Of a stretch of 38,741 bases of DNA, positions 7,680 to 38,741 are shown piece after piece. Source of the DNA: a virus. Both the position numbers and the translations under genes were made by a program. Positions within the stretch are counted from its first letter, which is position 1. Every line of letters begins with the position of its first letter. Where the stretch lies: positions 1-38,741 of IMG/VR virus record IMGVR_UViG_3300030406_001938. One strand, given 5' to 3'. The notes beneath the pieces were generated by a model that did not search any database, was not told the DNA's origin, and was given only the letters and a program-made list of their open reading frames with translations.

Positions 7680-7718
7680 TAGGGGGTATGCCCGAAAGGG
7701 TGTATCCCCTAATTTTTT
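7680..7718 (+). terminator. Strong intrinsic terminator after the first early operon
   Basis: A 14-bp stem (7680-7693 with 7698-7711, three G-T wobbles) is closed by a GAAA tetraloop and followed by six Ts at 7713-7718. The very stable GNRA-capped stem and U-tract make a textbook Rho-independent terminator for the 7001-7673 genes. Confidence 0.85.
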
Positions 7719-9309: not shown

Positions 9310-9342
9310 GTTCCTTTCTACCAGCACCCTTGCAACTAACAG

Positions 9343-9369
9343 ACGCCCAGCCTTGTGCTGGGCGTTTTT
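9343..9369 (+). terminator. Intrinsic terminator
   Basis: ACGCCCAGC (9343-9351) pairs with GCTGGGCGT (9357-9365) around the loop CTTGT, followed by a run of Ts (9365-9369). It ends the operon 8144-9309. Confidence 0.9.
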
Positions 9370-10189: not shown

Positions 10190-11005
10190 ATGTCACATAT
10201 TAAATTCAATCCTGTAAGCGAAAGAAAACACGTAAACAGGTTCACCCAAGATGGTGAGAACATTATCAAATGGCTTGGCATGGCTAAGCCTTACCTATCA
10301 ATACTCATGGGTCCAGCTGGTTGTGGTAAGACGCAAGCAGTTGAGGAGTATATCAGACGTAACAATCTGACAGCAGAGCACGTAGCCTGCCACCCAGGAC
10401 TTGAGGCAAACGACATTACAGGTGGTTATGTTCCAAGAGTTGGTCCAGACGGACAGCCACAAATACAATGGGTTGATGGCCCTTACACAAGAGCAGCTAA
10501 AGAAGGTCGTGTGATGTTACTTGATGAGATTACAAGACTAAACCAGCAACACGTTGGTAAGCTTATGAGTTCGCTTGACGAAACAAGACTGCTTACAAAC
10601 CCAGAGTCTGGTGAAGAAACAATCAAAATCAGCAAAGGCTTTCACGTGATTGCTACAGCAAACCCACCGGCAACTGGTTACAACACTGTTAACCTTGATG
10701 AAGCGTTGAAGTCAAGAGCAATGATTTACAAATTCATTGACAAGCCATTGTGTGATGAGAGAGCAACTCTTACAGACATACTTGGTGGTGATCAAGCATA
10801 CGTAGATGCGTTCATGAAGTGGGCAGAAGACTTGAGATCAGATGCAAGTACAGCAATATCCACAAGAGATTTGTGTTACCTAGCCAAGATGGTTGGTAGG
10901 GGCTTTACTGCAATGGAAGCGATTGAATTAAATTACAAGGACAAAGTGTCTGACGACAAGAAAGGTGTCGTACTTACTGGTGCATCAGCACACTTTGAGA
11001 ACTAG
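10190..11005 (+). CDS. MoxR-type AAA+ ATPase (CobS-like)
   Basis: 271 aa; SD GGGGGAA before ATG 10190. Walker A is GPAGCGKT at residues 41-48 and Walker B is MLLDE with Asp112-Glu113. The segment after Walker B (ITRLNQQHVGKLMSSLDETRLL) and the sensor-1 strand (FHVIATANPP) are typical of the MoxR/CobS branch of AAA+ proteins, whose members form hexameric remodelling machines with VWA-domain partners. Here the VWA gene follows after 8 bases, giving the classical pair. Annotation as cobaltochelatase CobS would be over-reading, since no cobalamin gene is present. Likely substrates are a phage or host protein complex; which one cannot be told from sequence. Confidence 0.88.
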   Translation: MSHIKFNPVSERKHVNRFTQDGENIIKWLGMAKPYLSILMGPAGCGKTQAVEEYIRRNNLTAEHVACHPGLEANDITGGYVPRVGPDGQPQIQWVDGPYTRAAKEGRVMLLDEITRLNQQHVGKLMSSLDETRLLTNPESGEETIKISKGFHVIATANPPATGYNTVNLDEALKSRAMIYKFIDKPLCDERATLTDILGGDQAYVDAFMKWAEDLRSDASTAISTRDLCYLAKMVGRGFTAMEAIELNYKDKVSDDKKGVVLTGASAHFEN

Positions 11006-11013
11006 GGGGTTCT

Positions 11014-12846
11014 ATGCCAAACAACTTTCTTAAGAAAAGATACAAAAGTCCAAATGATTTGCGTAGAGATCACAGAAACTTTACGAGCCATTTGGCAAAA
11101 GACATGCAAGTGTCATTCAACAACTTTGATGCTGACACAACCCTTGATACTGTAACTGGTATTAAAGTAGATTGGCGACATAATCTTGAAATCATCAGAC
11201 CAAAAGGTCGTTTGACATTCAACTCAAACCTGTTGGCTGCTGGTCAGGTTAAGTTTTCCAATCACAGATTGTCAAGAAATGTGCGTCAAAACTTAGTCAA
11301 AAGACTTATAGAAAAGCACGACAGTGAGCCATACGTTCATGACAGAATGAATGGTAAAGAATACATGGCTTATGATCAGGCTTGTCAAATCTATGATGCT
11401 GTGTACAACATCTTAGAAAACTATCGTACAGCTAAGAAATCGGCTGGGCATTTTGGTAGACCAAAGATGTTGAAAGATCACATCAAAGACGTAACTGCAT
11501 CAAAGACAGACTGTTGGGAAACTGAGATTCAATACCATGAGCATGATGAAACTCGTGAAAAATACCCATCACAAAAGTGGGACGTTAATTACAACATTTC
11601 GTGGTCTGAGCTTCGTAAGTGGATTTATGAGATCATTGGAGAGAGTGAGATCAAAGATCCGTTGGTGCAAAACATTGTGCACAAGCACAGCCAGTTGCTT
11701 AGAAACGCAAGCAGATCTACAAACAACACTTCACCAATACATGCAGCACTAACTGTTGCGTTGGACTTTGAGTCTAGTGTTCAAGACGATCTGGCAAATG
11801 GCCCTACGCAAAGTCCTAACATTGAAGAAGAAGAAAACTTTGATTCAAACTATCCAACATACAATGGCACGTTGCCACCTAGTGAAGCAAAGGACGTAGA
11901 AGAAGATGCACAAGCTATCATAGAAAATGGTGTTGATGATCACTTGAAAGAAGTGAACCAGCAATTCAAAGAGCAAGGTCTTCCAGAGCAATCTGTTGAT
12001 CTTGACGATGATCAAGACTTTGACAGATTGAGAGCTATGCAAGAAACCTACGACAACATGAAAAGACTTGACGTAAAGTGTACTGGCAGTCTTCAAAAGC
12101 CTGAAGGCACATTTCAAATGGCTACAAATAGCAACCTTGAAGGTGTTCAGCTTGACGAAGCCTTAGACAGAAACAACACAAGACTTGGCTCTAATGGTTT
12201 CAGGTTGTCAAGAAAATCTTGGCGATTGCCTTTTCTTGGAGATACAGACGTATTTCACAAGCACCCAGCAACATCAGCTGAGATTATTACAATCATTGAT
12301 GGCTCTGGTTCAATGGGTAGGGTCTTCCCTAAAACAGGACCAAGGGCTAAGCCTGACTACTACAGGGATCGTATTTTCCCAATGGAGCAAGCGGCAGAGA
12401 TGGCACTTGCAATCAAGAAAAGATTTCCTGATTCTCATGCGTACATCTTTGGTGATCCATCAGGAGAAAGGTCTAAGTATGAGATTGCAGGCTTATATCC
12501 AATTGATGGCGATACATTTCCAGAGTTTCCAGCTAGTGGTACGCCATTGTGTGGTGCACTTAAAACCTTGGAAAAGATACACAACCTAGATTCAGCAAGA
12601 ATTATCATTGGCACAGATGGTGATGCTAACTGGTGTATGGGGGAAGACGCATACGAGTGTGTTCATTCTGTGCTTGACAGCTGGAGAAACAAAGGTATCA
12701 GGGTTGCAACGTTGTACACTCCGTTCTATCCAAGTGAAGGCAAAGTGCCTGGTTCGTTGCATGGTGACATCACTGTTACGCTAGATCCTGATAGACCAAT
12801 TACAAATCAAGACATCAAAGATGTCTTTAGTTTCATAGGGGGATAA
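11014..12846 (+). CDS. VWA-domain partner of the MoxR ATPase (CobT-like)
   Basis: 610 aa. A C-terminal von Willebrand A domain carries a complete MIDAS metal site: D429-x-S431-x-S433 (IIDGSGSMG), Thr510 (ASGTPLCGAL) and Asp535 (IIGTDGD). Residues 1 to about 250 are a basic helical region, followed by a Glu/Asp-rich linker (about 265-335), the layout seen in CobT-type proteins. MoxR partners use the VWA domain to dock substrate or activate the ATPase. SD GGGGG before ATG 11014; 8 bases after the ATPase gene and 1 base before the next gene, so the module is surely one operon. Confidence 0.87.
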   Translation: MPNNFLKKRYKSPNDLRRDHRNFTSHLAKDMQVSFNNFDADTTLDTVTGIKVDWRHNLEIIRPKGRLTFNSNLLAAGQVKFSNHRLSRNVRQNLVKRLIEKHDSEPYVHDRMNGKEYMAYDQACQIYDAVYNILENYRTAKKSAGHFGRPKMLKDHIKDVTASKTDCWETEIQYHEHDETREKYPSQKWDVNYNISWSELRKWIYEIIGESEIKDPLVQNIVHKHSQLLRNASRSTNNTSPIHAALTVALDFESSVQDDLANGPTQSPNIEEEENFDSNYPTYNGTLPPSEAKDVEEDAQAIIENGVDDHLKEVNQQFKEQGLPEQSVDLDDDQDFDRLRAMQETYDNMKRLDVKCTGSLQKPEGTFQMATNSNLEGVQLDEALDRNNTRLGSNGFRLSRKSWRLPFLGDTDVFHKHPATSAEIITIIDGSGSMGRVFPKTGPRAKPDYYRDRIFPMEQAAEMALAIKKRFPDSHAYIFGDPSGERSKYEIAGLYPIDGDTFPEFPASGTPLCGALKTLEKIHNLDSARIIIGTDGDANWCMGEDAYECVHSVLDSWRNKGIRVATLYTPFYPSEGKVPGSLHGDITVTLDPDRPITNQDIKDVFSFIGG

Positions 12847-12847
12847 T

Positions 12848-13507
12848 ATGAAATACAATGAATATTCGCCAAGAGTAAGAAAGTATCTCACTTGGTCTTT
12901 AGAATACGCCATTATGCGTAGAATTAACGACATGTTCAAGAAGCATCAAAAGGTGCCAACTCACATGGTTATGGCTGGCAATGTCACGAAAGCTAGCCCT
13001 GAAGCAATTAATGAGTTCAAACAAACAGGTAGAGATGCACTCAATATAATGCCCAAAGCTATTAGGGACAGCATCAATATTGATGAAGCGTGGCAAAGTG
13101 TACCTGTGCCAATTGTTACGCCATTGCCAAATGTAGATGATGACAAAAAAATGTATAGTTTCATGGAATATGCACTTAATCAGTCAGAAGCGTTGATGTA
13201 CATATACGTTACAGAAGCTGTTGGTGTACCAGAAAGCGTTCTAAATCAGAACGAAAAGCTTTTTGCGTCAAAGCCTAGTGATGCACACCCTGACAACATC
13301 AGCAACTATGTTGTCTTGAGCATAATGGCTAACAAATTAAAGCCAAAATTAGTTGCAGCTAAAGTTACACGAAACATAATCAATCGTGAAGGTGAGTATG
13401 GTCGCAAGCTTGGTAGTTGGAAGCAACACCACAATGCAAAACTATTCACATCAAACTTACCAACATCAAAACACTTACAACCAGACTGGAGGAACAATGT
13501 CAGGTAA
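12848..13507 (+). CDS. Hypothetical protein of the AAA+/VWA operon
   Basis: 219 aa; SD GGGGG just before ATG 12848. Mostly helical, basic at the C-terminus (KQHHNAKLFT...). No known domain or catalytic motif was seen. It directly follows the VWA gene and its end overlaps the next gene by 11 bases, so it is probably an additional subunit or substrate adaptor of the MoxR-VWA system; this is inference from context. Confidence 0.7.
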   Translation: MKYNEYSPRVRKYLTWSLEYAIMRRINDMFKKHQKVPTHMVMAGNVTKASPEAINEFKQTGRDALNIMPKAIRDSINIDEAWQSVPVPIVTPLPNVDDDKKMYSFMEYALNQSEALMYIYVTEAVGVPESVLNQNEKLFASKPSDAHPDNISNYVVLSIMANKLKPKLVAAKVTRNIINREGEYGRKLGSWKQHHNAKLFTSNLPTSKHLQPDWRNNVR

Positions 13508-13958
13508 AGCTAAATACTGTGAAGAATGTAAAGGATATGGTGGTCTTTATGTTCAAGTAATCAAAAGATATGGTGATGATCGGATCAAAGAAAGACACCC
13601 CGACAAACCAGCAAAAGAACCATGTGAACCTTGTAAAGGTACAGGTATGCTGTCTGTAACTACAGACAAAGTGCCAGTCTTTGACGTAGACGAAAGAGCT
13701 ACTGCAAAGATGCGAACTCAAAACAATGAAGTGCAGAGTGGGGAAATACACTACTCACCAGAAGAAGATCCTGGTGCTGACGTAGACGTACCATCTGAAG
13801 CACCCGAACCAACAGAAGATGATCTTGCAGACGAAATGGAAGAAATCCTAGCAGATCAGCAAGCAACAGAAGACGAAATGGTTGGGGAAGTAGTTGACGA
13901 AGACGATCCAGTTGTCTTTGAAGAAACTAGGATTGAAGACGAGGAGATGCCATTATGA
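13497..13958 (+). CDS. DnaJ-like zinc-finger protein with acidic tail
   Basis: 153 aa from ATG 13497, chosen because GGAGG ends 4 bases upstream; the longer frame from 13386 lies inside the previous gene. Two CxxCxGxG motifs, C8-E-E-C11-K-G-Y-G and C43-E-P-C46-K-G-T-G, match half of a DnaJ cysteine-rich domain and should bind one zinc. The remaining 90 residues are extremely acidic (Asp/Glu-rich). No J-domain is present, so it is not a full DnaJ. A substrate-binding or protein-docking role beside the AAA+/VWA genes is plausible. Confidence 0.75.
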   Translation: MSGKAKYCEECKGYGGLYVQVIKRYGDDRIKERHPDKPAKEPCEPCKGTGMLSVTTDKVPVFDVDERATAKMRTQNNEVQSGEIHYSPEEDPGADVDVPSEAPEPTEDDLADEMEEILADQQATEDEMVGEVVDEDDPVVFEETRIEDEEMPL

Positions 13959-14422
13959 TGCAAGAAGATTACATCAGGGACATCTTGTGGTACAAATCTC
14001 TAGCTAAGCAAGCAACAGCTAAAGCAAAGCAAATGGAGATTGAATTACGCAAAGAGTTCAGTGAAATTGGGCTAGACGCTACAGAAGTAGGCCCATACAA
14101 ACTAACACTCAGTCATCAGTCAGTTGACTGGGATCCTGATATCATAGATACTATCAAAACAATCAATGGTGTCAGTGATGGTGACAAAGATAAATTGTTC
14201 ATGCCAATTAAACGTAAAGCTAATGGCGTTCATCTCAACTCTATTGCCAAAAAGTATGGCAGAACAGTTGCAGAAAGAATAGACATGGCTAGAAAAGAAA
14301 CTGGCGAAACGTTCAAGATATCAACTGACAGAACAGAAAACAATCTTATCGATAATGCTGCTGCTGAATTTTTACAGCAAGCAGACGATGAAGAACAACA
14401 AGAACAGGGGGACAATCTATGA
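13955..14422 (+). CDS. Hypothetical protein upstream of recT
   Basis: 155 aa. Start ATG 13955 overlaps the preceding stop (ATGA). Residues 1-40 form a Lys/Glu/Ala-rich helix (LAKQATAKAKQMEIELRKEF), followed by a mixed fold and an acidic Gln/Glu-rich C-terminus. It overlaps recT by ATGA, so the two are coupled. Many phages place a nuclease or small accessory gene at this spot, but no nuclease motif is visible here. Confidence 0.7.
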   Translation: MMQEDYIRDILWYKSLAKQATAKAKQMEIELRKEFSEIGLDATEVGPYKLTLSHQSVDWDPDIIDTIKTINGVSDGDKDKLFMPIKRKANGVHLNSIAKKYGRTVAERIDMARKETGETFKISTDRTENNLIDNAAAEFLQQADDEEQQEQGDNL

Positions 14423-15420
14423 GCAACATAGACAAATATGACGACTTAAAAGCAATCGCAAAAGACTTTCATGCGTCTGGCTTTTTTGCGTCAATCAAAA
14501 ATCCACAACAAGCGTTGGTAACAATCATGGCTGGACGTGAGCTAGGCATGGGGCCATTCGAGGCAATGAGTAACATCTATGTCATACAAGGCAGACCAGC
14601 GTATTACGCACATAAATATGGCGATATGATCAAGAGATCAGGTAAATATGATTTCAAGGTCTTAACTCTTACAGACACAGAGTGTGTCATTCAGTTTTTA
14701 CAAGATGGGAAAATCATTGGGAAATCAGAATTTACGATGGAAGACGCTAAAAAAGCAGGGCTTGGGGGTACAAGCTGGACTAAGTATCCACGTAACATGT
14801 TGTACTCTAGAGCAATCAGCAATGGTGCTAAGTGGTACTGTCCTGATGCTTTCAATGGTGCTGCGTACACACCTGAAGAACTTGGTGCTGAAGTTGAGGT
14901 AGACGAACATGGCACAGAAACAGTGATATCTATACCTAGGGAAGATGTCGTAGTTCAAGATGCACCGACTCCTAATGATACGGAGCAAAGGGCAGAAACA
15001 AGTTCATCTTCCCCAGAAGTTGCTGAAGATGTACAGGAAGAACGTTCTGAAGGGGGCGTACAGCTAGAGATTGACGAAACGTTGTCACGACCTGGCGTTA
15101 CTGTTACGAAAGCAGCTGACTTTGAGATAGGTCAGTTCTCAGAAAGAGCATCACAAAAAGGTGATCCAATGGGTTCAATATCTATCATAAGCACATACAC
15201 GCTACCAGCTGGTGTAACTCAATATTGGGACGAATTTACTGTGAGCCCTTTTACTATGCAAGATAAACTTGAATTGTACAGGGGACTTCAAGCTGGCGAT
15301 AAGATAACTGCAAAGCTTATCTTTGAGAGCAAAGGTCCTAAGCAAAATTACCAGAACATAGACGTGGTAATGAAGCACCCATCTGATGACGATAAGTCAG
15401 AAGATGAACAACCTTGGTAA
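14419..15420 (+). CDS. recT: RecT-type single-strand annealing protein with extra C-terminal domain
   Basis: 333 aa. Residues 1 to about 160 show the RecT pattern: ALVTIMAGRELGMGPFEAM, then YVIQGRPAYYAHKYGDMI, FTMEDAKKAGL, YPRNMLYSRAISNGAKWYCP and YTPEELGAEV (Tyr150 onward). RecT proteins anneal complementary strands during phage recombination and replication. After a low-complexity linker, residues about 220-318 form a beta-rich region of unknown family. The protein ends in an acidic tail with a terminal aromatic (DDDKSEDEQPW), reminiscent of SSB-type tails. Upstream gene overlaps by ATGA. The RecT call is strong; the nature of the C-terminal domain is open. Confidence 0.87.
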   Translation: MSNIDKYDDLKAIAKDFHASGFFASIKNPQQALVTIMAGRELGMGPFEAMSNIYVIQGRPAYYAHKYGDMIKRSGKYDFKVLTLTDTECVIQFLQDGKIIGKSEFTMEDAKKAGLGGTSWTKYPRNMLYSRAISNGAKWYCPDAFNGAAYTPEELGAEVEVDEHGTETVISIPREDVVVQDAPTPNDTEQRAETSSSSPEVAEDVQEERSEGGVQLEIDETLSRPGVTVTKAADFEIGQFSERASQKGDPMGSISIISTYTLPAGVTQYWDEFTVSPFTMQDKLELYRGLQAGDKITAKLIFESKGPKQNYQNIDVVMKHPSDDDKSEDEQPW

Positions 15421-15719: not shown

Positions 15720-15916
15720 TGAAATACGCAACACGAGAAGAAAAGATAGAAAAGATACTCCAGTATTGGGAAGAAGGTTGGTACTCTGGCAAACTTCAAG
15801 ACGCTTTTGATGAACTCAAAGGACTTCACACAGGCCAAGAGTTTCCACTCACACAATGGAATGACGAAGAAATAGGTTGGGAATACGAAGAAGCAGAAAG
15901 GTTTTTCAATGAGTGA
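15716..15916 (+). CDS. Small hypothetical Glu/Trp-rich protein
   Basis: 66 aa, coupled to the upstream stop. Helical and very acidic with five tryptophans (YWEEGWYSGK, GWEYEEAERFF). Overlaps the helicase-loader gene by 8 bases. Function unknown; the position between recT and the loader suggests a replication accessory. Confidence 0.6.
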   Translation: MMKYATREEKIEKILQYWEEGWYSGKLQDAFDELKGLHTGQEFPLTQWNDEEIGWEYEEAERFFNE

Positions 15917-16790
15917 TTTTAAACCACTGTTTGACAAAGCTGATCCACGTGAACACCCTAACAGGGATTTCTCTCAACCAGTTTTGCCCGACAGAACAAC
16001 AAAACAAGACCAATTCATAAAAGACGATAGCATTAGGATACGTGATAAATTTCCTGGTCATCGTATGCCACTATCATCTCCATGCTTTTGCGATGGTATG
16101 CTGTGGGTAATGCCCACAATAGATGGCAAGGTCTTTGGTGTAGGACACCCTGACTTCGGTAAAGCCATAGCTTGCAGCTGTTACGCAGCAGAGAGCCAAG
16201 GCAAGAAACGTCAGTATCTCTGGTCTATGTCTGGTCTTAGTCAGACAGACTACATACCAAAACTAGCAGATTACAATGAAAACTTGTCGCAAGACGCTGG
16301 ACACGCTAAGAACAGTGTGATTGAGTGGATTGAAGACAAGACAAACCCATGGCTAATACTTGTAGGGCCACCTGGTCTTGGCAAGACACACTTGTCAAAA
16401 GCAGCAACTGCCAACTTAATCGGGCTTGGAAAGCCTGTTATGTTTGCAACAGTAAGAGATGTGCTCAACAAGAGTCGTAGCTGGATTACGAGTAAGCAAA
16501 GCGATAAATGGGTTGAATATCTTGCAAGTTTAGAGAATATCCAGTATCTTGTGTTAGATGACTTAGGACAAGAATACTCCACCGACTGGAGTAGACAAGT
16601 CTTGTTCGACATTATTGACACACGATATGAAAGCAGAAGACCCACACTTATCACAACAAACATTCAATCATCTGAATGGAATGACTACCTTGGCAAAGCA
16701 TGTGCTGACAGATTGCAGGACTATAATCTTAGCCTTCAAGTAGTTATGCGTGGTAAGAGTGTACGTCAAAAGCTAAACAGAGATGGATAG
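15909..16790 (+). CDS. DnaC-like helicase loader ATPase
   Basis: 293 aa. Walker A GPPGLGKT at residues 153-160 and Walker B YLVLDDLG with Asp217-Asp218. A sensor-1 segment (PTLITTN) and an arginine-finger region (ADRLQD) complete the DnaC/IstB-type AAA+ core. The N-terminal part has CFCDG and CSC cysteine pairs (about residues 59-95) that could bind zinc. Loaders of this type open the DnaB ring and place it on single-stranded DNA. No DnaB-like helicase is encoded in the window, so the likely partner is the host helicase. Confidence 0.85.
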   Translation: MSDFKPLFDKADPREHPNRDFSQPVLPDRTTKQDQFIKDDSIRIRDKFPGHRMPLSSPCFCDGMLWVMPTIDGKVFGVGHPDFGKAIACSCYAAESQGKKRQYLWSMSGLSQTDYIPKLADYNENLSQDAGHAKNSVIEWIEDKTNPWLILVGPPGLGKTHLSKAATANLIGLGKPVMFATVRDVLNKSRSWITSKQSDKWVEYLASLENIQYLVLDDLGQEYSTDWSRQVLFDIIDTRYESRRPTLITTNIQSSEWNDYLGKACADRLQDYNLSLQVVMRGKSVRQKLNRDG

Positions 16791-17166
16791 ATCAACTTGG
16801 AAAAAATGGGAACGCAAGGTTGCTGAATGGTTTGGTGGCGATAAGGTTAATGCAAAAAGAATACCTGTTACAGGTAGAAACTCAGGCGATGTGCCTGACG
16901 TTGAAACAATCAAGTTTGCAATTGAAGTTAAAGCTGGCAAAGTAGTTAGTTCAAGGACGCTAAAGGCTGTAGAACAAGCTAAAAAAGCTGGGGCAACAAC
17001 AAGAAAAATACCTGTTGTTGTACAAGTACACAAGCTTAACAATAGTAAAGCTATACCATTAGTTACCCTTGACCTTGCTACGTTCCTAAAAATTACAGAA
17101 CCAATACGCAAAGAAGAAAAGCGTATAAAATTAAGTTTGGACAACTCTAAAGGGTTGAGTATTTAA
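16783..17166 (+). CDS. PD-(D/E)XK nuclease, Holliday-junction-resolvase-like
   Basis: 127 aa; start overlaps the loader gene's end by 8 bases. Glu10 (WKKWERKVAEWFGG), Asp36/Asp39 (SGDVPDVE) and Glu48-x-Lys50 (AIEVKAGK) fit the PD-(D/E)XK active site. The size and N-terminal acidic helix match small phage/archaeal junction resolvases. It probably trims or resolves branched replicative DNA before packaging and may act with RecT. It is the last gene of the rightward block. An exact substrate cannot be read from sequence. Confidence 0.78.
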   Translation: MDRSTWKKWERKVAEWFGGDKVNAKRIPVTGRNSGDVPDVETIKFAIEVKAGKVVSSRTLKAVEQAKKAGATTRKIPVVVQVHKLNNSKAIPLVTLDLATFLKITEPIRKEEKRIKLSLDNSKGLSI

Positions 17167-17265
17167 CATTCCAAAAAGCATAAAATAAAACTGTCCTACA
17201 ACAGTTGCGAAGCATTCCAAAAAGATTTACAATGGGAATGTTCATATTTGATCCCTTAGATCAAA
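17167..17265. repeat. Short repeats and hairpins in the convergent intergenic region
   Basis: CATTCCAAAAAG occurs twice (17167-17178, 17213-17224) and its CATTCC is mirrored by GGAATG at 17235-17240. Hairpins AACTGT/ACAGTT (17189-17206) and TTTGATC/GATCAAA (17247-17265) lie in the same 100 bases. They precede the main terminator and may assist termination or protect the 3' end. Confidence 0.5.
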
Positions 17266-31263: not shown

Positions 31264-31292
31264 ATTATAATACCCAATTTATTGTCCTGCAA
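31264..31292 (-). promoter_or_regulatory. Candidate promoter for the scaffold/capsid genes
   Basis: On the minus strand a perfect -10 element TATAAT (31269-31264) lies 17 bases from TTGCAG (31292-31287, three matches to the -35 consensus). It lies between the giant virion gene and the scaffold gene, overlapping the giant gene's 3' end, where extra transcription for the abundant coat protein would be useful. The weak -35 means this is only a candidate. Confidence 0.45.
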
Positions 31293-34200
31293 CCCTCCAT
31301 TTAGGAACATACTCTTCAAAAGGGAATCTAGACTTCAATTCATCTTCTCTTCCAAAGTTAGCAGGATTAGCTAAAGATTCAGCAAAACCCCACCTGTAAA
31401 GAAAAGCATCTAGCTCTGGATTAAACCTTCTAAGCTCTAATCTAAGTCTTTCCCATTCTTTCAAAGCCTGTTTAAAACCTTGGTTGTTTTCTTCAATTAA
31501 TTGTCTTTTTCTATCGTCATATTTAGATAAATACCATTCACGGTATATATCATCAAACTGACCTTGGTATCTTGTTTGGAATATTTCTTTCCTAGTATCT
31601 TCCCAATACTGAGGAAAGTATTCATCTCTTCTTCTGTAAAATTCTTGGTTAAATCCTGTTGAATCCCATCTTCCTCCATAAAGCTTGTCTTTGGCGTATG
31701 ATTCATATTCAGAGCTACCCCATCTTTGCCTCCATCCTTCTAGCTCTGTTTCTCTGCCTTCAAAGTCAAACATGTAACCTAAGTCCCATTTGTCATCAAA
31801 CATTATTTCAGCGTATTCGTCAGCAGCAAAATCTTCTACTCTTTCAAAGTCCCCTAAATTGCCTTTTATTGCCATTAGGTATGCTTCAACATCTGGATAC
31901 TTTTCTGATATATTTTGAACATCATATCTGTATTGAGTTCTAGCTTTTTGTTCTCGTAATATATATTGCTCTAAACTAATTTCGTAACCTCTAAGAGAAG
32001 ATTCAGCAGCTTGCACAGCATGGTTGTATAAAGCTCTTGCATCATCAACTTCATTAGCTTTAAGTTCAAAGTTTCTATCTAAACTAGAACCTCCAACAAT
32101 TCTTCTCTTTTCAAATATTTCTGATTCAAGCTCTCTTAATCTTTGAACATTAGGGTCAGCTTCTACATCATTAGATTCAGTTATTAATCTTTTCTGAACA
32201 TCATTTAAACTTCTCCAATTAGTTTTGTAGTATTGCTGAGCTAACATATCTCTAACTTCTTTTCTTTTTTCATAGTCACTAATTGGGTTGGTTCTTAGTC
32301 CTATAAACTCAGTACCACCACCTAGCACTCCGTTCTCAAACAAAGAGTCTAACCAGAATGGAGTAGCACTTGATCCTAATTCCTGGAACCAGTCACCTCT
32401 AAATGGTTTTAATTCTTCTCCTAAAAAGTTAGCACCCATTCCTAAGTCCCACATACTAGAACCAGCTGGTGAGGTTCTTGATCGCAACCAGTATAATATC
32501 TGGTTATTTTGTAAATAGTCTTTAATGCCTGTTTCATCAAATCCAGCCCTGCCTCTGCCAGACCCTGTAAGCAATAAAGGAGAGTCAAGTATATCGCCTC
32601 TAAATGCAGGATCATTAGCTATTTTACCAACCAATCTTGCCATAGATGTCCAAGCTGAACCAAACCCAACATTTACGTTTCCAATTTGTGTTGTTAAAAA
32701 CTTACCACTTGTTGGGTCAAGGTTTATGTGTTGGTTTATGTCCTCACCTCTTACCTTAGCATTTAATGCAGCAAACCCAAGATGAGTTGCTATTCCAGCT
32801 CCCATCATAGATTGTAATGCTCTCCTTGCTTCTTGGCCTTGTATGTCACCTTTTACAACAGAACCTATTAATCCTAATGTAGCTCTTGTATATGAAGGAG
32901 AAAAGAATATTACAGACCTTTCTATGTTAGATTGTCTAGCGCTTATTCCTGCTCGTCTGCTTGAAAATGCTCCTGTCATTCCGTTTATGTATTCAGCTAA
33001 CTGAGTTAATTGCTGATCTATTACATCATCTCCAAGATTATTTGCAGCACCACTTCTTAGTATTTGTTGATAATGTGCATCCCATAATCCTTCTCTTATC
33101 ATATCTCCGTATGCTTCAAAGCTGGCTTGAAACCCATCTAATACATCTGCGCCTTTGTCTATTGCAGCTCTTGATTGTTTAAATCCAGGAACAGAGTCTT
33201 TAGCTTGCAAGTTATTAACTCTACCTTCTGAAAGTAATTTATTAAACACAGTCCTGTTGTTTGCTGCCCTAAAGTAATCGTTACCAGCATTACTTATCAA
33301 GACTCCATAGTTTGCCATCAAAGCAAAGTTCTTTCTTTTTTTATTAATTAACTCGGCATGTAATCTTGGAGCATCACCATCTTTTACACCTCTCCATATC
33401 AACTGCCCCATTGTTTTAGTTCCATTAACCCAAGAACCTAAATACGCCTTTTTTAGTTTCATATCTGTTGTGCCAAGACCTCTTAAAAGAGTCGGTAATC
33501 CATGTAAAAATGCTGTACCTGCGTCAAAACCTGTTTGAACTAATCTAAAGTAGTCGTTTACAGTTGCTGTCTTTGAAGCTGCAATATCAAAAGGGTTTTC
33601 TTTATTTATGTTTAAAAACTTCTCAATATTACTAGCTGTTTTGTCATCAAAAAACAAGTTTCTTTTAGCCAAAGCTTTTACTTCGTTTTGTATTTGACCT
33701 CTTTGGTCTGTTACCATTCTAAGCTCTACAGCTTCTGGCCCATATAAACCTGAAAGTTTCCTCTGCGTTTTGTTTAGCTTTATATCTTTGCCACCCATCT
33801 TTGCTATTTTGTTTTTGTAGTAAAGAACATCTTTATCAAAATCTCGTTCTAATTCGTCTAAATAATCTTTAATTATTCGTTGAACATCTCCCTGAACTTT
33901 ATCATCAGGGTTCTTTAACATTTCTTTTATTTTGTTGTATTCTTTGTTCCAGTTTTTAGCGTCTGAAGGAATAAGGTTTGCTTGGTTTTCTCTCAAAGCC
34001 CTGTCTAAGTCATCAACTATGTCATTGCCAAGATTCCCTCCAACACTAACAAAGTTTTGAATTTTTTGTATTTCATCAGCTTTTTTACGGAACTCTTTTA
34101 CTTTGTCACCCCATTGTTGAAGTCTTGTTACATCAAATTTAGCTGCTGTTAATTGTTGATGAGAAATGTTTTCTAATCTTCTTACTACTTGTTCATCTGC

Positions 34201-37200
34201 AATTTCTTTATAAACAGAATTTAAAAATTCTTCTGCCATTTGAGCTGGGTCTTGGTTGTACACTAAACTTCTTTCATCTATACCATCTATTACGCTGTCA
34301 AAAAACCTATTTCTGCTAATTGTTGTTGGTTTAAGTGCACCATTAGAAAGCCTTGACCAGTCTTGCCTATCAATTAAATCTTGATACTCAGCTAAGTTTT
34401 CAACGATGTGATGGACATAATTTCCTGTAGTGTTTACAAATAAGTTATTAGGGGGTATTCCTTTTCTTGATAATAAATGAGCTCCTTCATCAAACAAAGT
34501 GTAGTAATTTTTAAGATAGTTAACCATGTCAGGTGGCAAATTAAAATACTGTTCGTACAACCTAATTGGTTTACCAAAAGGCCCGTTGTAATCTACTACG
34601 TATCCAGCCATATCTAAAAAGTCAGCAACGTTCATTGTAATGTTATCTGCATCTTTTGGAAGATCAGGGTATTTTTTTGCAAACAGATTTAAAACATCAT
34701 TAGGTATAGCATTCATAGCTTTTAGGTTAGCCCATTTAAATTTATCTTTATCTATACCATCAGCTAAAAAGTTATCTCCAAAGTGATGAATTTGTTTTAC
34801 ACCATCATCGTTTGCCCAAGAAAACGCATCTGCCTTTTTACCAGGATTGTGCAATACACTGTCTATGTTTTCGTAAGCAGCATCCAAATCTCTTTTTATG
34901 TTTCTTGCTATAGCATTAAGAGCAGATCCGCTGTCTTCAGTTACATCAATAACACTATCAAGACCTTTGAGTCTTCTTTTTGATGGCGTAGTTATTATTA
35001 ATTTATTGTTACCTATACCTCTCCTTAAAGCGTTTATCATGCTCATTGCTGATGTATAACTTTGAATTGGAGCTCTTGCTTTTCCACCAATAGATACTGC
35101 TCCAGGATTAACTCCTCTTTGTGGAGGAAAGATTTGATCTCTGATTTGATCTAGGTTGGCAAACTGATCTATATCCACTTCCTCTATATTTTTAACTAAT
35201 TTTCTTGCATCACCATAAGCATCAATAAGTTCTTGTGCTTGTTGAGGACTAAAACCGCCTTCTACTAAGCCTTCACGCTGAACCATAGTATTTGCCCAAT
35301 TCATAAAAGCTTGTTTATCAACAATGCTTTCTTCTCGTGGATTAAAACCTATTCTTATGCCCTCTTCTATTTGATCCATACCGCCTAGGAAAAATTCTTC
35401 TGCTGCTTGTGCTGCTTTAGGATTTCTAAAATGTTGCCATTCGTGTTCTAATACAAAATTTTCATAATCTTCATAAGTAGGAAAAAGTTCTTTACTTGGT
35501 CTTACTCTTTCCCATATTCTGTCACCTTCCTGTAAAGGAGCATCAAATTGTCCAGGAGCAGGTTGTCTTTTAGCTCCTGTTACAGGATCTATTGGTGACA
35601 CTACAATTCCATCTGGTGCTCCTGCTGCTGTTTCTCTTAAACCTTTATTGTAATCTCTTCTTATTGCTTCTCTGTTTATTGTAATTTTATAAGGAACGTT
35701 TTGTTTTGCGCTTAAAGGAGCTGACCCTTCTACATATTTACCAGTATTCCTTTCTGCCGCAGTAATAATAATTTTTTCTGCTTTATCAGGCCTTACTGTT
35801 ATTGGTGCTTGTTCTCGGTAACTTGCCATAGAGCCTTTGTCTAAACGAGCTAACCTAGGGTTATCAACCACTGGTATACCTTTATATAATTTTTGTTTAG
35901 AAGGAGTTTTAGCAAAGTCTGCAAATCTAGCTCCATTGTCAGTTAACTTTGTAACATCATAGTTTTTAACAGCATCAAATAAATTTTGTTGCAAAAAAGG
36001 ATCTTGATCATATCTATCAAAAACATTTTCTACTAGCTCAGCATATACTTGATTAACGTTTGCTTTGTTTTTGTTAATTGAATCAATTGCTTCATTAAAT
36101 TCTCTAGGCCTTCTGCCTACTGCTTTTCCTCTAGCTTTTTTTAATTCGGCAAACGCTTCTTCAGATTTTCTTAATTGTTCTGCTGCTGTTTCTAGTCTTG
36201 ATAAATCTTTTTTTACAAATTGTTTTAAAGTTTTTGGATATCTTGGATCAGTTTCTTTTCCACCTACACTTCTAGCGTATGCTTGAGCACGTTTAATTTG
36301 TTCATTAGATGGCGCAAAATCAATTGCATAAGTATCTACATAGAAAGCATCACCATCATTGTATTTAATATAATGCCCTTTGCCTGGCTGTAAAGCAGTT
36401 TCTACAGTTGAATCTATCCTGCTAGTTGCTTCCCAAGCACTCATGTTATCTGCGCTAGCATTTAGTTTTGCAGTTAATGCTTCTATTCCTTCATCTGTAA
36501 GCCCTGATTGTTCTCCTATTTCTTGCGCAGTCTTTTTTATACTGCCTCTAGTGCTAGCACCTAATCTTCCCATTGCACGAAAACCACCATTTACTTCACC
36601 TATAGACCATTCGCCAGTAAGTTCGTCTAAGAAAAAAGCAATTTCTCCTTCAAGAATTCTTTTATCTTCGTAAGCAAAATAAGACTCCATGGCTTTGTTT
36701 CTTTTTGCAATTACTTTTTCTTTTCTTATAGGAACTGTTAAAGCTGTGTATTTTTCTAAAACATCAAGACCATCTTTTTTAACAGTCCTTTCTACATCTC
36801 CTATTGTCATGCCATTTTTTTTAGCTATATCTTCAAAAGATTGGCCAGGTGCTCTAAGTTTTGCTATAGCTCTAGTAACCCAACCTGCTCCACCTATTGC
36901 ATCTGCATGAAATGCTAATTCAGCTCTGCCTTCTAGTGTTGCACCGAGAGTATATGCAGGATTCCACAGCTTGTGTATGTTTTTAACACCCATTAAGAAA
37001 TGTCTGCCAGGATTTAATTTACTTAATCTTTTTGCTTCATCGCTATTGGCATATCTTAAGAAATCACCAATTAGTCCTTCTCTATTGACACCTGCTCTTT
37101 CTATAGCACTGTCATAATTTGAAGGATCCATTACTTGAGTGTTAACTTTTGTGTCTAACCTAACATTGTCAAGGTCTATTACTCTTCCATTCTTAACTCT

Positions 37201-38076
37201 AAGCCTTACATCACCACCTGTTCTAATTTGAGTTTGTTGATGTTTTGACAAAGTGTTCCAAGTACCCTTGGCTTTTAAAGACTTTATAAAATCTCTGGTA
37301 TTTTCTTTAACTAGGTCTAAGTTTCTAAGTTGTGCGTCAAATCCTTGTCCTTTTTCTAAAAGCCTTTGACCTTCTTTTCTTATACCCTTAACACCAGGGA
37401 GAAGGCTAGTTACTGTAGACACTCCTTTTCCTATAGGTCTAAATATTGCTCCTACAGGTATTGCCATAGTTGCTAGACCAACAGGGTCAACCAGCATTTC
37501 TACTGCACCCTTAACACCTACGTTAAAGCCAAAGCCATCTTCTCCTTTATCAGGGTCTGCTCCAAATCTTTTTGTTGCAAACTGTGATTGCCTCCACGCT
37601 TCACCTGGACTCATACCCTTATTCATATTTCTTTTAACTTGCTGACTAAATGGGGATGCAACTACACCAGCTGTAAACTCAGTAGCTTTTTGCCAGCCTT
37701 CAAGACCTTTCATTAATCCTTGACCAATATAACTAAAAGGGTTTAGGTTAATTCCATCATCATTAGGTAACTCTACTCCAGGTTGCATCTGTAAGGGTTC
37801 ACTTACGTTACGTCCTTTGTCATGCAAACCAAACCCATGAGAAGCGCTTAATAAACCTCTGTATGTTTTATTTTGAGAATCTTGCCTTGCTTGTATTTCT
37901 TGTCTTAAAGCTTGTGTTTCAGGGTTGTCAAAAAATTGACCTGTACGTTTAGATTGTTCTAATAGAGCTTGAAGCCTTCTTATTTTTTCATCTTCTTTTT
38001 CTTTTTCTCGTGTTCTATTTTGAAAAGCTGTAGAGCTTTCCCATGGTGATCTATCTCCGAATGGTGTTCTTGGCAT
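31279..38076 (-). CDS. Giant virion protein with embedded HEXXH zinc-protease motif
   Basis: 2265 aa, by far the largest gene. The first 130 residues are charged and helical. A hydrophobic stretch (about 190-215, VEMLVDPVGLATMAIPVGAIF) may insert in membranes. Near the middle is the zincin signature H878-E879-W-Q-H882, followed 34 residues later by E915-E916-S-I-V-D920-x2-A923, which resembles the third-ligand motif ExxADxxA. The C-terminal third has a membrane-like region (SVIFFSPSYTRATLGLIGSVV, SMMGAGIATHLGF) and ends in a charged repeat-like tail rich in Tyr, Arg and Glu. Large ejection proteins of this size travel with the DNA in many podoviruses. An activity on cell envelope or virion protein is plausible but unproved. 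Confidence 0.82.
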   Translation of the reverse strand: MPRTPFGDRSPWESSTAFQNRTREKEKEDEKIRRLQALLEQSKRTGQFFDNPETQALRQEIQARQDSQNKTYRGLLSASHGFGLHDKGRNVSEPLQMQPGVELPNDDGINLNPFSYIGQGLMKGLEGWQKATEFTAGVVASPFSQQVKRNMNKGMSPGEAWRQSQFATKRFGADPDKGEDGFGFNVGVKGAVEMLVDPVGLATMAIPVGAIFRPIGKGVSTVTSLLPGVKGIRKEGQRLLEKGQGFDAQLRNLDLVKENTRDFIKSLKAKGTWNTLSKHQQTQIRTGGDVRLRVKNGRVIDLDNVRLDTKVNTQVMDPSNYDSAIERAGVNREGLIGDFLRYANSDEAKRLSKLNPGRHFLMGVKNIHKLWNPAYTLGATLEGRAELAFHADAIGGAGWVTRAIAKLRAPGQSFEDIAKKNGMTIGDVERTVKKDGLDVLEKYTALTVPIRKEKVIAKRNKAMESYFAYEDKRILEGEIAFFLDELTGEWSIGEVNGGFRAMGRLGASTRGSIKKTAQEIGEQSGLTDEGIEALTAKLNASADNMSAWEATSRIDSTVETALQPGKGHYIKYNDGDAFYVDTYAIDFAPSNEQIKRAQAYARSVGGKETDPRYPKTLKQFVKKDLSRLETAAEQLRKSEEAFAELKKARGKAVGRRPREFNEAIDSINKNKANVNQVYAELVENVFDRYDQDPFLQQNLFDAVKNYDVTKLTDNGARFADFAKTPSKQKLYKGIPVVDNPRLARLDKGSMASYREQAPITVRPDKAEKIIITAAERNTGKYVEGSAPLSAKQNVPYKITINREAIRRDYNKGLRETAAGAPDGIVVSPIDPVTGAKRQPAPGQFDAPLQEGDRIWERVRPSKELFPTYEDYENFVLEHEWQHFRNPKAAQAAEEFFLGGMDQIEEGIRIGFNPREESIVDKQAFMNWANTMVQREGLVEGGFSPQQAQELIDAYGDARKLVKNIEEVDIDQFANLDQIRDQIFPPQRGVNPGAVSIGGKARAPIQSYTSAMSMINALRRGIGNNKLIITTPSKRRLKGLDSVIDVTEDSGSALNAIARNIKRDLDAAYENIDSVLHNPGKKADAFSWANDDGVKQIHHFGDNFLADGIDKDKFKWANLKAMNAIPNDVLNLFAKKYPDLPKDADNITMNVADFLDMAGYVVDYNGPFGKPIRLYEQYFNLPPDMVNYLKNYYTLFDEGAHLLSRKGIPPNNLFVNTTGNYVHHIVENLAEYQDLIDRQDWSRLSNGALKPTTISRNRFFDSVIDGIDERSLVYNQDPAQMAEEFLNSVYKEIADEQVVRRLENISHQQLTAAKFDVTRLQQWGDKVKEFRKKADEIQKIQNFVSVGGNLGNDIVDDLDRALRENQANLIPSDAKNWNKEYNKIKEMLKNPDDKVQGDVQRIIKDYLDELERDFDKDVLYYKNKIAKMGGKDIKLNKTQRKLSGLYGPEAVELRMVTDQRGQIQNEVKALAKRNLFFDDKTASNIEKFLNINKENPFDIAASKTATVNDYFRLVQTGFDAGTAFLHGLPTLLRGLGTTDMKLKKAYLGSWVNGTKTMGQLIWRGVKDGDAPRLHAELINKKRKNFALMANYGVLISNAGNDYFRAANNRTVFNKLLSEGRVNNLQAKDSVPGFKQSRAAIDKGADVLDGFQASFEAYGDMIREGLWDAHYQQILRSGAANNLGDDVIDQQLTQLAEYINGMTGAFSSRRAGISARQSNIERSVIFFSPSYTRATLGLIGSVVKGDIQGQEARRALQSMMGAGIATHLGFAALNAKVRGEDINQHINLDPTSGKFLTTQIGNVNVGFGSAWTSMARLVGKIANDPAFRGDILDSPLLLTGSGRGRAGFDETGIKDYLQNNQILYWLRSRTSPAGSSMWDLGMGANFLGEELKPFRGDWFQELGSSATPFWLDSLFENGVLGGGTEFIGLRTNPISDYEKRKEVRDMLAQQYYKTNWRSLNDVQKRLITESNDVEADPNVQRLRELESEIFEKRRIVGGSSLDRNFELKANEVDDARALYNHAVQAAESSLRGYEISLEQYILREQKARTQYRYDVQNISEKYPDVEAYLMAIKGNLGDFERVEDFAADEYAEIMFDDKWDLGYMFDFEGRETELEGWRQRWGSSEYESYAKDKLYGGRWDSTGFNQEFYRRRDEYFPQYWEDTRKEIFQTRYQGQFDDIYREWYLSKYDDRKRQLIEENNQGFKQALKEWERLRLELRRFNPELDAFLYRWGFAESLANPANFGREDELKSRFPFEEYVPKWRVAGQ

Positions 38077-38084
38077 TAATCACC

Positions 38085-38741
38085 TCACGAAATCATTGCT
38101 GATAATTGTCCAAATGGTCCTGTTTCCTGAAACGCTTGTGGAGTTACATCTTGTGCCATTCTAATAAACGTTTGCGGATCAATTCCTAATGCAGATAATG
38201 CGCCCTGCAAGTATTCAATCCTGCTTGGAGTCATTTCTGTTAATTGCCCCATAGTTGGAACAGTTTCAAACGGAAGTTCTCCGGAGATTATAGTTACGAA
38301 AGCACCAAGTGCTTGTGGGTTAGTAAGCAAAGCCATCAAAGAATTCATTTCTTGCGATCTACTTTCAGCTGAAATCTCAGCTAATCTTTGCTCTGGAGTT
38401 AATCCACCAGCAGCTAATAAAGCTTGTAAGCTTCTATCTTCATCTTGAGTTAAGCCTCCACGACCTATTTCTATTTGAGCAGCTTTAAATTCTTCTGGGG
38501 TTTCATATCCACCCTGAAACTGCATTTGTGCTAATTGTCTTTGGAATTCTAGTTGCTCTGGCTGTGCATCAAGCTCAGCTTGATACTTATCTTTTTCAAA
38601 CTGTAACTGTGCGTCTTGAAAGTCTTTAGTAGCTTTAGTATTTATTTCAGCAATATACTGCTCCATATTCTTTACTACACCTTCGGGGTTAACTGCCAAA
38701 GCTTCTTCACTAATATCTATTGCCTGAGATAATTCTTTTGC
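38085..38741 (-). CDS. Rod-like virion protein, C-terminal part (continues from base 1)
   Basis: This 218-residue frame is open to the window end and is the continuation of the gene at 1-2090. In this copy the repeat reads Ser where the left copy reads Ala. The TTG at 38699 (LAVNPEG) is an internal codon, not a true start. The fragment is helical and Gln/Glu-rich (QFEKDKYQAELDAQPEQLEFQRQLAQM), then has a Pro/Gly-containing globular part with small helices (FVTIISGELPFETVP, LQGALSALGIDPQTFIRMAQ). It ends 8 bases before the giant gene, which has an SD (GAGGTGA) over that junction. Confidence 0.8.
   Translation of the reverse strand, partial: AKELSQAIDISEEALAVNPEGVVKNMEQYIAEINTKATKDFQDAQLQFEKDKYQAELDAQPEQLEFQRQLAQMQFQGGYETPEEFKAAQIEIGRGGLTQDEDRSLQALLAAGGLTPEQRLAEISAESRSQEMNSLMALLTNPQALGAFVTIISGELPFETVPTMGQLTEMTPSRIEYLQGALSALGIDPQTFIRMAQDVTPQAFQETGPFGQLSAMIS
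38674..38741. repeat. Right copy of the 68-bp terminal direct repeat
   Basis: Same sequence as bases 1-68 except base 38729 (A here, C at 56). See the left copy for interpretation. Confidence 0.9.

Follow-up and report, generated by a model that had tools for sequence, protein, structure and literature searches.

A putative NorQ/NorD-like AAA+–VWA machine encoded in a recombination operon of a small uncultured phage

The 38,741-nucleotide IMG/VR record IMGVR_UViG_3300030406_001938 (the whole stretch of DNA analysed, hereafter the window) comes from a small uncultured virus of bacteria. Positions 10190–13958 hold four intact open reading frames (ORFs) on the + strand, encoding a MoxR/NorQ-type AAA+ ATPase, a VWA protein, a 219-amino-acid (aa) protein and a zinc-finger protein. 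The ATPase and the VWA protein very probably constitute a NorQ/NorD-like ring-plus-adaptor remodelling machine. Tentatively, we favour a reading in which this machine acts on a protein complex on phage DNA. AAA+–VWA pairs are found in many phages and archaeal viruses, where their routine annotation is that of auxiliary metabolic genes for cobalamin (cobST). The pair points to a common, so far unexplained phage function.

An earlier note on this DNA had described four intact genes with intergenic gaps of 8, 1 and −11 bases, among them an intact MoxR ATPase and a VWA protein with a complete metal-ion-dependent adhesion site (MIDAS). The gaps and the ORF coordinates are exact, and the key residues of both proteins are invariant in 13 phages, i.e., the window and 12 relatives whose contigs cover the region. 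The phage group was found by scans with the VWA protein, the 219-aa protein and the ATPase, plus the terminase as an independent anchor. The features of the four genes, with conservation referring to the 13 phages, are as follows.

10190..11005, + strand: MoxR/NorQ-type AAA+ ATPase, 271 aa, without N-terminal extension (Pfam AAA_5 and CbbQ_C; PDB profile matches)
10310..10333, + strand: Walker A motif GPAGCGKT, aa 41–48 (G41, A43, G44, G46, K47 and T48 invariant)
10523..10528, + strand: D112–E113 of the Walker B motif LLDE (invariant)
11014..12846, + strand: VWA protein, 610 aa (AlphaFold model and structural matches)
12298..12312, + strand: MIDAS DxSxS motif, D429/S431/S433 (invariant)
12541..12543, + strand: MIDAS T510 (invariant)
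12616..12618, + strand: MIDAS D535 (invariant)
12848..13507, + strand: 219-aa protein without family assignment (relatives only beside the ATPase–VWA pair)
13497..13958, + strand: zinc-finger protein, 153 aa, two CxxCxGxG motifs, long acidic tail (cysteines kept)
13518..13529, + strand: CEEC of the first CxxCxGxG motif
13623..13634, + strand: CEPC of the second CxxCxGxG motif

The ATPase and the VWA protein resemble NorQ and NorD

The ATPase matches AAA_5 of Pfam with 93 bits (cut-off 22; E = 2.2e-26) and CbbQ_C with 21.6 bits (cut-off 20.6). Its PDB profile matches are CbbQ (5c3c), NorQ (9qh4) and the AAA domains of Midasin, and the profile alignment to NorQ covers aa 30–256. In addition to the Walker motifs, it has a sensor-1 residue (N158), R176 and a sensor-2 motif (STRDL), whose key residues are invariant as well. 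It scores 57–73 bits against NorQ/CbbQ and up to 54 bits against the viral CobS proteins tested, the profiles being different ones. Judged by sequence, the ATPase is nearest to NorQ/CbbQ, not to CobS. With the ATPase alignment as query, no match was found in 84,980 cellular genomes.

The VWA protein is composed of a helical N-terminal part, an acidic linker and a C-terminal VWA domain (about aa 420–610). Its AlphaFold model aligns with the VWA domain of NorD (9qh6; Z 13.7, 208 residues, root-mean-square deviation 3.7) and with Rea1-MIDAS (6qtb; Z 13.7, 181 residues). Among the viral models of BFVD, it matches phage CobT-like/VWA proteins and, more weakly, ORF892 of Acidianus two-tailed virus (ATV; E = 2.7e-3). 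The C-terminal domain is thus clearly predicted to adopt a VWA fold with a complete MIDAS. No similarity was recognised for the N-terminal part, the whole protein has no PHROG match, and a metallopeptidase domain was not found, DUF2201_N matching none of the 6 members examined.

In the 13 phages, C513, C541 and C549 near the MIDAS and H20, H26, H146, H156 and H225 in the N-terminal part are invariant. A second metal site, formed from such residues, is possible.

Like NorQ/NorD (nitric oxide reductase maturation) and CbbQ/CbbO (rubisco activase), the pair combines an ATPase of 270–280 aa carrying AAA_5 and CbbQ_C with a partner carrying a C-terminal MIDAS VWA domain. Unlike those systems, it is encoded by a phage without nitric oxide reductase or rubisco, and beside extra genes for the 219-aa and zinc-finger proteins. 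Contact between NorQ and NorD is made by a VWA finger inserted into the pore, and client binding has been proposed for the MIDAS (PMC13036017).

By analogy, the 271-aa protein would assemble into a hexameric ring, on which the C-terminal VWA domain would dock. Docking would leave the MIDAS metal free for an acidic residue of the client, and the long N-terminal region and the acidic linker would either hold the client or be pulled by the ring. On ATP hydrolysis, the ring would twist its VWA partner, and the client would be strained and remodelled.

The pair lies in a replication/recombination operon conserved in a phage group

The earlier note had ended the block at position 13958. The operon runs on, through 4-base overlaps, into the 155-aa gene and RecT, with DnaC and RusA further on, and the four-gene block is part of one early-looking + strand operon. 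The machine would be made early, together with these proteins.

9341..9367, + strand: strong intrinsic-terminator-like hairpin, upstream of the operon
13955..14422, + strand: 155-aa protein without family assignment (4-base overlap with the zinc-finger gene)
14419..15420, + strand: RecT-like single-strand annealing protein (PHROG 561, 7e-27)
15909..16790, + strand: DnaC-like helicase loader (PHROG 50, 2.5e-43)
16783..17166, + strand: RusA-like Holliday junction resolvase (PHROG 244, 8e-9; PHROG 2002, 1.4e-7)

The genes for the ATPase, the VWA protein, the 219-aa protein, the zinc-finger protein, the 155-aa protein and RecT keep identical order and strand in 13/13 phages. The four genes of the block, whose neighbourhood comparison the earlier note had called for, therefore occur together wherever the region is covered. 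More distant relatives of the terminase large subunit TerL (L041–L047; 48% identity) are fragments outside the region and are uninformative on presence. In none of the 13 does a further gene interrupt the stretch from the VWA gene to RecT. In one phage (L007/L065), the ATPase and VWA genes are separated by 215 bases that include a small ORF. The RecT–DnaC interval ranges from 273 to 1439 bases. Searches with tblastn against 50,697 phage records gave no match for the VWA, 219-aa, zinc-finger or 155-aa proteins.

Across the group, identity falls to about 54% for the ATPase, 31–36% for the VWA protein and 29–32% for the 219-aa protein, and TerL stays near 83%. Despite this divergence of the VWA protein, the motor and MIDAS residues do not vary. 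The ratio of nonsynonymous to synonymous substitution rates (dN/dS) is mostly 0.09–0.39 in all genes, with outliers that rest on very few changes, and purifying selection acts on all of them. VWA alleles diverge strongly (dS about 0.88) between genomes that are 92–98% identical in their ATPase and RecT regions, a pattern as would be expected if the adaptor were an exchangeable specificity part.

The 219-aa, zinc-finger and 155-aa proteins

Proteins of the 219-aa family, which lacks annotation, are strictly linked to the machine in this group. The family has conserved motifs (VPxP..PLP, MY..xTEA.G, HPD and I..R.G) and a dN/dS of 0.12–0.21. A scan seeded on the 219-aa protein itself returned only loci already known in the same phage group, all beside the ATPase–VWA pair. 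The start/stop spacing between the VWA and 219-aa genes is held at 1–5 bases in the 13 phages, suggesting translational coupling. Most likely, the 219-aa protein would assist the VWA protein as a co-factor or be its client, in either case specific to this lineage.

Pfam, PHROG, NCBIfam and PDB contain no convincing match to the 219-aa protein, and hints of DinB/DUF2153 for the family (E 0.05–0.09) were not accepted. A fold search with its model (mean predicted local distance difference test score, pLDDT, 62.6) gave a best PDB Z of 4.7, which is not meaningful. The top BFVD match of the model is a 210-aa uncharacterised protein of Mycobacterium phage Catdawg. Gp79, the length-matched gene in the stretch of that phage read, gave no hhalign alignment and adjoins no AAA–VWA pair.

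The zinc-finger protein, whose 153 aa are counted from an ATG with a good ribosome-binding site, had been called DnaJ-like. This identity does not hold: the protein has two CxxCxGxG motifs instead of four and no J domain, and it scores 17.5 bits against DnaJ_CXXCXGXG, below the cut-off of 32.7 bits. C8, C11, C43 and C46 are conserved across the 13 phages, and the two motifs make up one predicted zinc site. Its conserved final residues, EMPL, probably reflect the ribosome-binding site that serves the gene downstream, not protein function.

The 4-base overlap between the zinc-finger and 155-aa genes is found in 12 of the 13 phages, and the thirteenth has a run of N. An apparent fusion of the two proteins in L058 was rejected, because the joint consists of N (X once translated). 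The zinc-finger gene may be part of the recombination set; with its acidic tail, the protein may serve those genes from within the same operon. Throughout the phage group, the 155-aa gene separates the zinc-finger gene from RecT, and its product is a possible RecT partner.

AAA+–VWA pairs in other viruses

Viral MoxR–VWA pairs have been reported before. Precedents include phage 0305phi8-36 (PMC2147016), Hardycor1 (PMC7911831), the core gene 25 of N4 with its vWFA domain (PMC4193335) and Roseobacter phages, in which the function of the AAA+/VWA pair was called uncertain (PMC11288001). By profile search, neither the 219-aa nor the zinc-finger nor the 155-aa protein has a recognisable relative in the neighbourhoods of the pairs of Syn19, Mosig, Big4, GMA6, ChisanaKitsune, KSY1, N4 and HCTV-1. 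Therefore, among the viruses compared, the ATPase–VWA pair is a widespread core, and the 219-aa, zinc-finger and 155-aa proteins are companions particular to this phage group. The 219-aa and zinc-finger genes, two conserved companions, are so far found only here.

The viral cobST genes of cyanophages, haloarchaeal tailed viruses, Gordonia phages and Roseobacter CRP-810-type phages are likewise adjacent AAA+/VWA genes in non-structural regions, with an ATPase homologous to that of the window and a structurally similar VWA protein. They differ in their neighbours and in their ATPase: the phage CobS-like ATPases compared have 345–445 aa, whereas the window ATPase has 271 aa and no N-terminal extension. 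The N4-like gp24/gp25 and the jumbo-phage MoxR–vWA pair, in turn, share with the window a phage AAA+ protein and a VWA-like protein in a middle or early region. In contrast to the window VWA protein, N4 gp25 contains DUF2201, a metallopeptidase domain (match 3e-87).

The vWA–MoxR ternary conflict systems (PMC7159879) also combine MoxR, VWA and a third component in one operon. Those systems are cellular and carry VMAP and effector domains, whereas for the 219-aa protein, which matches no Pfam family convincingly, no relation to them was recognised (VMAP-C was not compared directly).

Possible clients of the machine

A DNA-transaction complex, of phage or host replication/recombination, is the likeliest client class, because of the RecT/DnaC/RusA setting and of similar settings elsewhere: a related pair lies between gp46/47 and the clamp/clamp-loader genes gp45/44/62 in cyanophage Syn19, and another between primase/helicase and SSB in Gordonia phages. 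We regard this assignment as plausible, with the balance tipped somewhat against it. Several points weigh against the favoured reading of a NorQ/NorD-like machine on phage DNA. The client assignment is guilt by association with adjoining replication genes, and early operons carry host-takeover genes too. In addition, the full-length model of the VWA protein has a mean pLDDT of 59, with low confidence outside the VWA domain.

A further point concerns the companions. L063 is a mosaic relative to L060 and L059, with which it is otherwise near-identical: its 219-aa gene and the 5' part of its zinc-finger gene are of one lineage and its VWA and 155-aa alleles of another. The 219/zinc-finger cassette can thus work with either VWA allele, which weakens tight co-adaptation of the cassette and the VWA protein, although it is a single event.

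This mosaic also bears on whether the four genes form one functional module, as the earlier note had it. That claim is too strong. The prospect is nearly even that the pair alone is the functional unit and that linkage of the 219-aa and zinc-finger genes is simple synteny, the zinc-finger protein serving RecT and the 155-aa protein, an arrangement compatible with any of the targets considered here. In the eight viruses compared above, no 219-aa or zinc-finger gene was recognised close to the pair, and the 155-aa and RecT genes are linked to the window pair just as constantly as its companions are. Against simple synteny, the 219-aa gene is never seen away from the pair, and its spacing from the VWA gene suggests translational coupling. 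Taken as a whole, the observation of the earlier note is confirmed, and its reading is supported in part. A four-part machine, in which a NorQ ring, a VWA adaptor, the new 219-aa family and the acidic protein with one zinc site would act with RecT on phage recombination/replication complexes, is unlikely. Such complexes would be a client class that, to our knowledge, has been shown for no MoxR–VWA system.

Counter-defence or host takeover, in which the machine would dismantle a host complex (defence, respiratory or transcription) with the VWA protein as exchangeable target-recognition subunit, is rather unlikely. The early operon is consistent with it, as are the low conservation of the VWA and 219-aa proteins (about 30–35% identity) relative to TerL and the ATPase, and the divergent VWA alleles in otherwise similar genomes. 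However, the dN/dS of the VWA gene (0.22–0.39) indicates purifying selection, with no gene-wide sign of positive selection. The pair also appears fixed in the group, whereas counter-defence genes would usually be expected to be patchy.

A role as virion assembly chaperone is distinctly improbable for the window pair. It has an experimental precedent in the viral MoxR ATPase p618 of ATV, which binds its VWA partner p892 and virion proteins and has a role in tail development (PMC4124505), and such a chaperone has been proposed for the MoxR–vWA(metallopeptidase) pair of jumbo phages (PMC7824862). The structural match to ATV ORF892 agrees with this role. However, whereas the ATV proteins act on virion tails, the window genes lie within a replication/recombination operon, in 13/13 phages and on the strand opposite to the terminase and putative tail-fibre genes, and the metallopeptidase domain was not found in the VWA protein.

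Finally, the pair resembles the cobST clusters that are widespread in tailed viruses and were proposed to raise B12 synthesis (PMC8651126), and PHROG 249 is labelled 'porphyrin biosynthesis', but it is highly improbable that ATPase and VWA protein are a cobaltochelatase CobS/CobT that borrows host CobN to raise cobalamin synthesis: the ATPase is closer to NorQ/CbbQ, TIGR01650 (CobS) is matched neither by the window ATPase at a threshold of E 0.1 nor by that of a distant relative at 0.01, in a search in which CobS of cyanophage Syn19 matched at 4e-18, Rfam gave no hit and so no cobalamin riboswitch, and neither a further cob gene nor a ribonucleotide reductase was recognised among the ORFs scanned of the 38.7-kb genome. 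The cobalamin reading is unsupported here and disfavoured, in accordance with the earlier view that the CobS/CobT label is misleading. The NorQ/NorD-looking pair lies in a recombination operon of a compact, apparently complete genome with no cobalamin signal, so that the B12 reading can be tested here and is probably wrong in this case.

The genome and further observations

Given its 68-base direct terminal repeat (1–68 = 38674–38741, one mismatch), the record probably represents an entire phage genome of about 38.7 kb that was assembled as a circle. A single gene is probably split between the two ORFs truncated at the record ends.

Upstream of small early genes, a 14-bp terminator-like hairpin is located at 7680–7711. 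A 2265-aa protein encoded on the − strand at 31279–38076 is not matched by any PHROG and may be a large virion or internal protein. In L013, an ORF downstream of the resolvase gene (16092–17178, − strand) resembles, by eye, one for a DNA cytosine methyltransferase.

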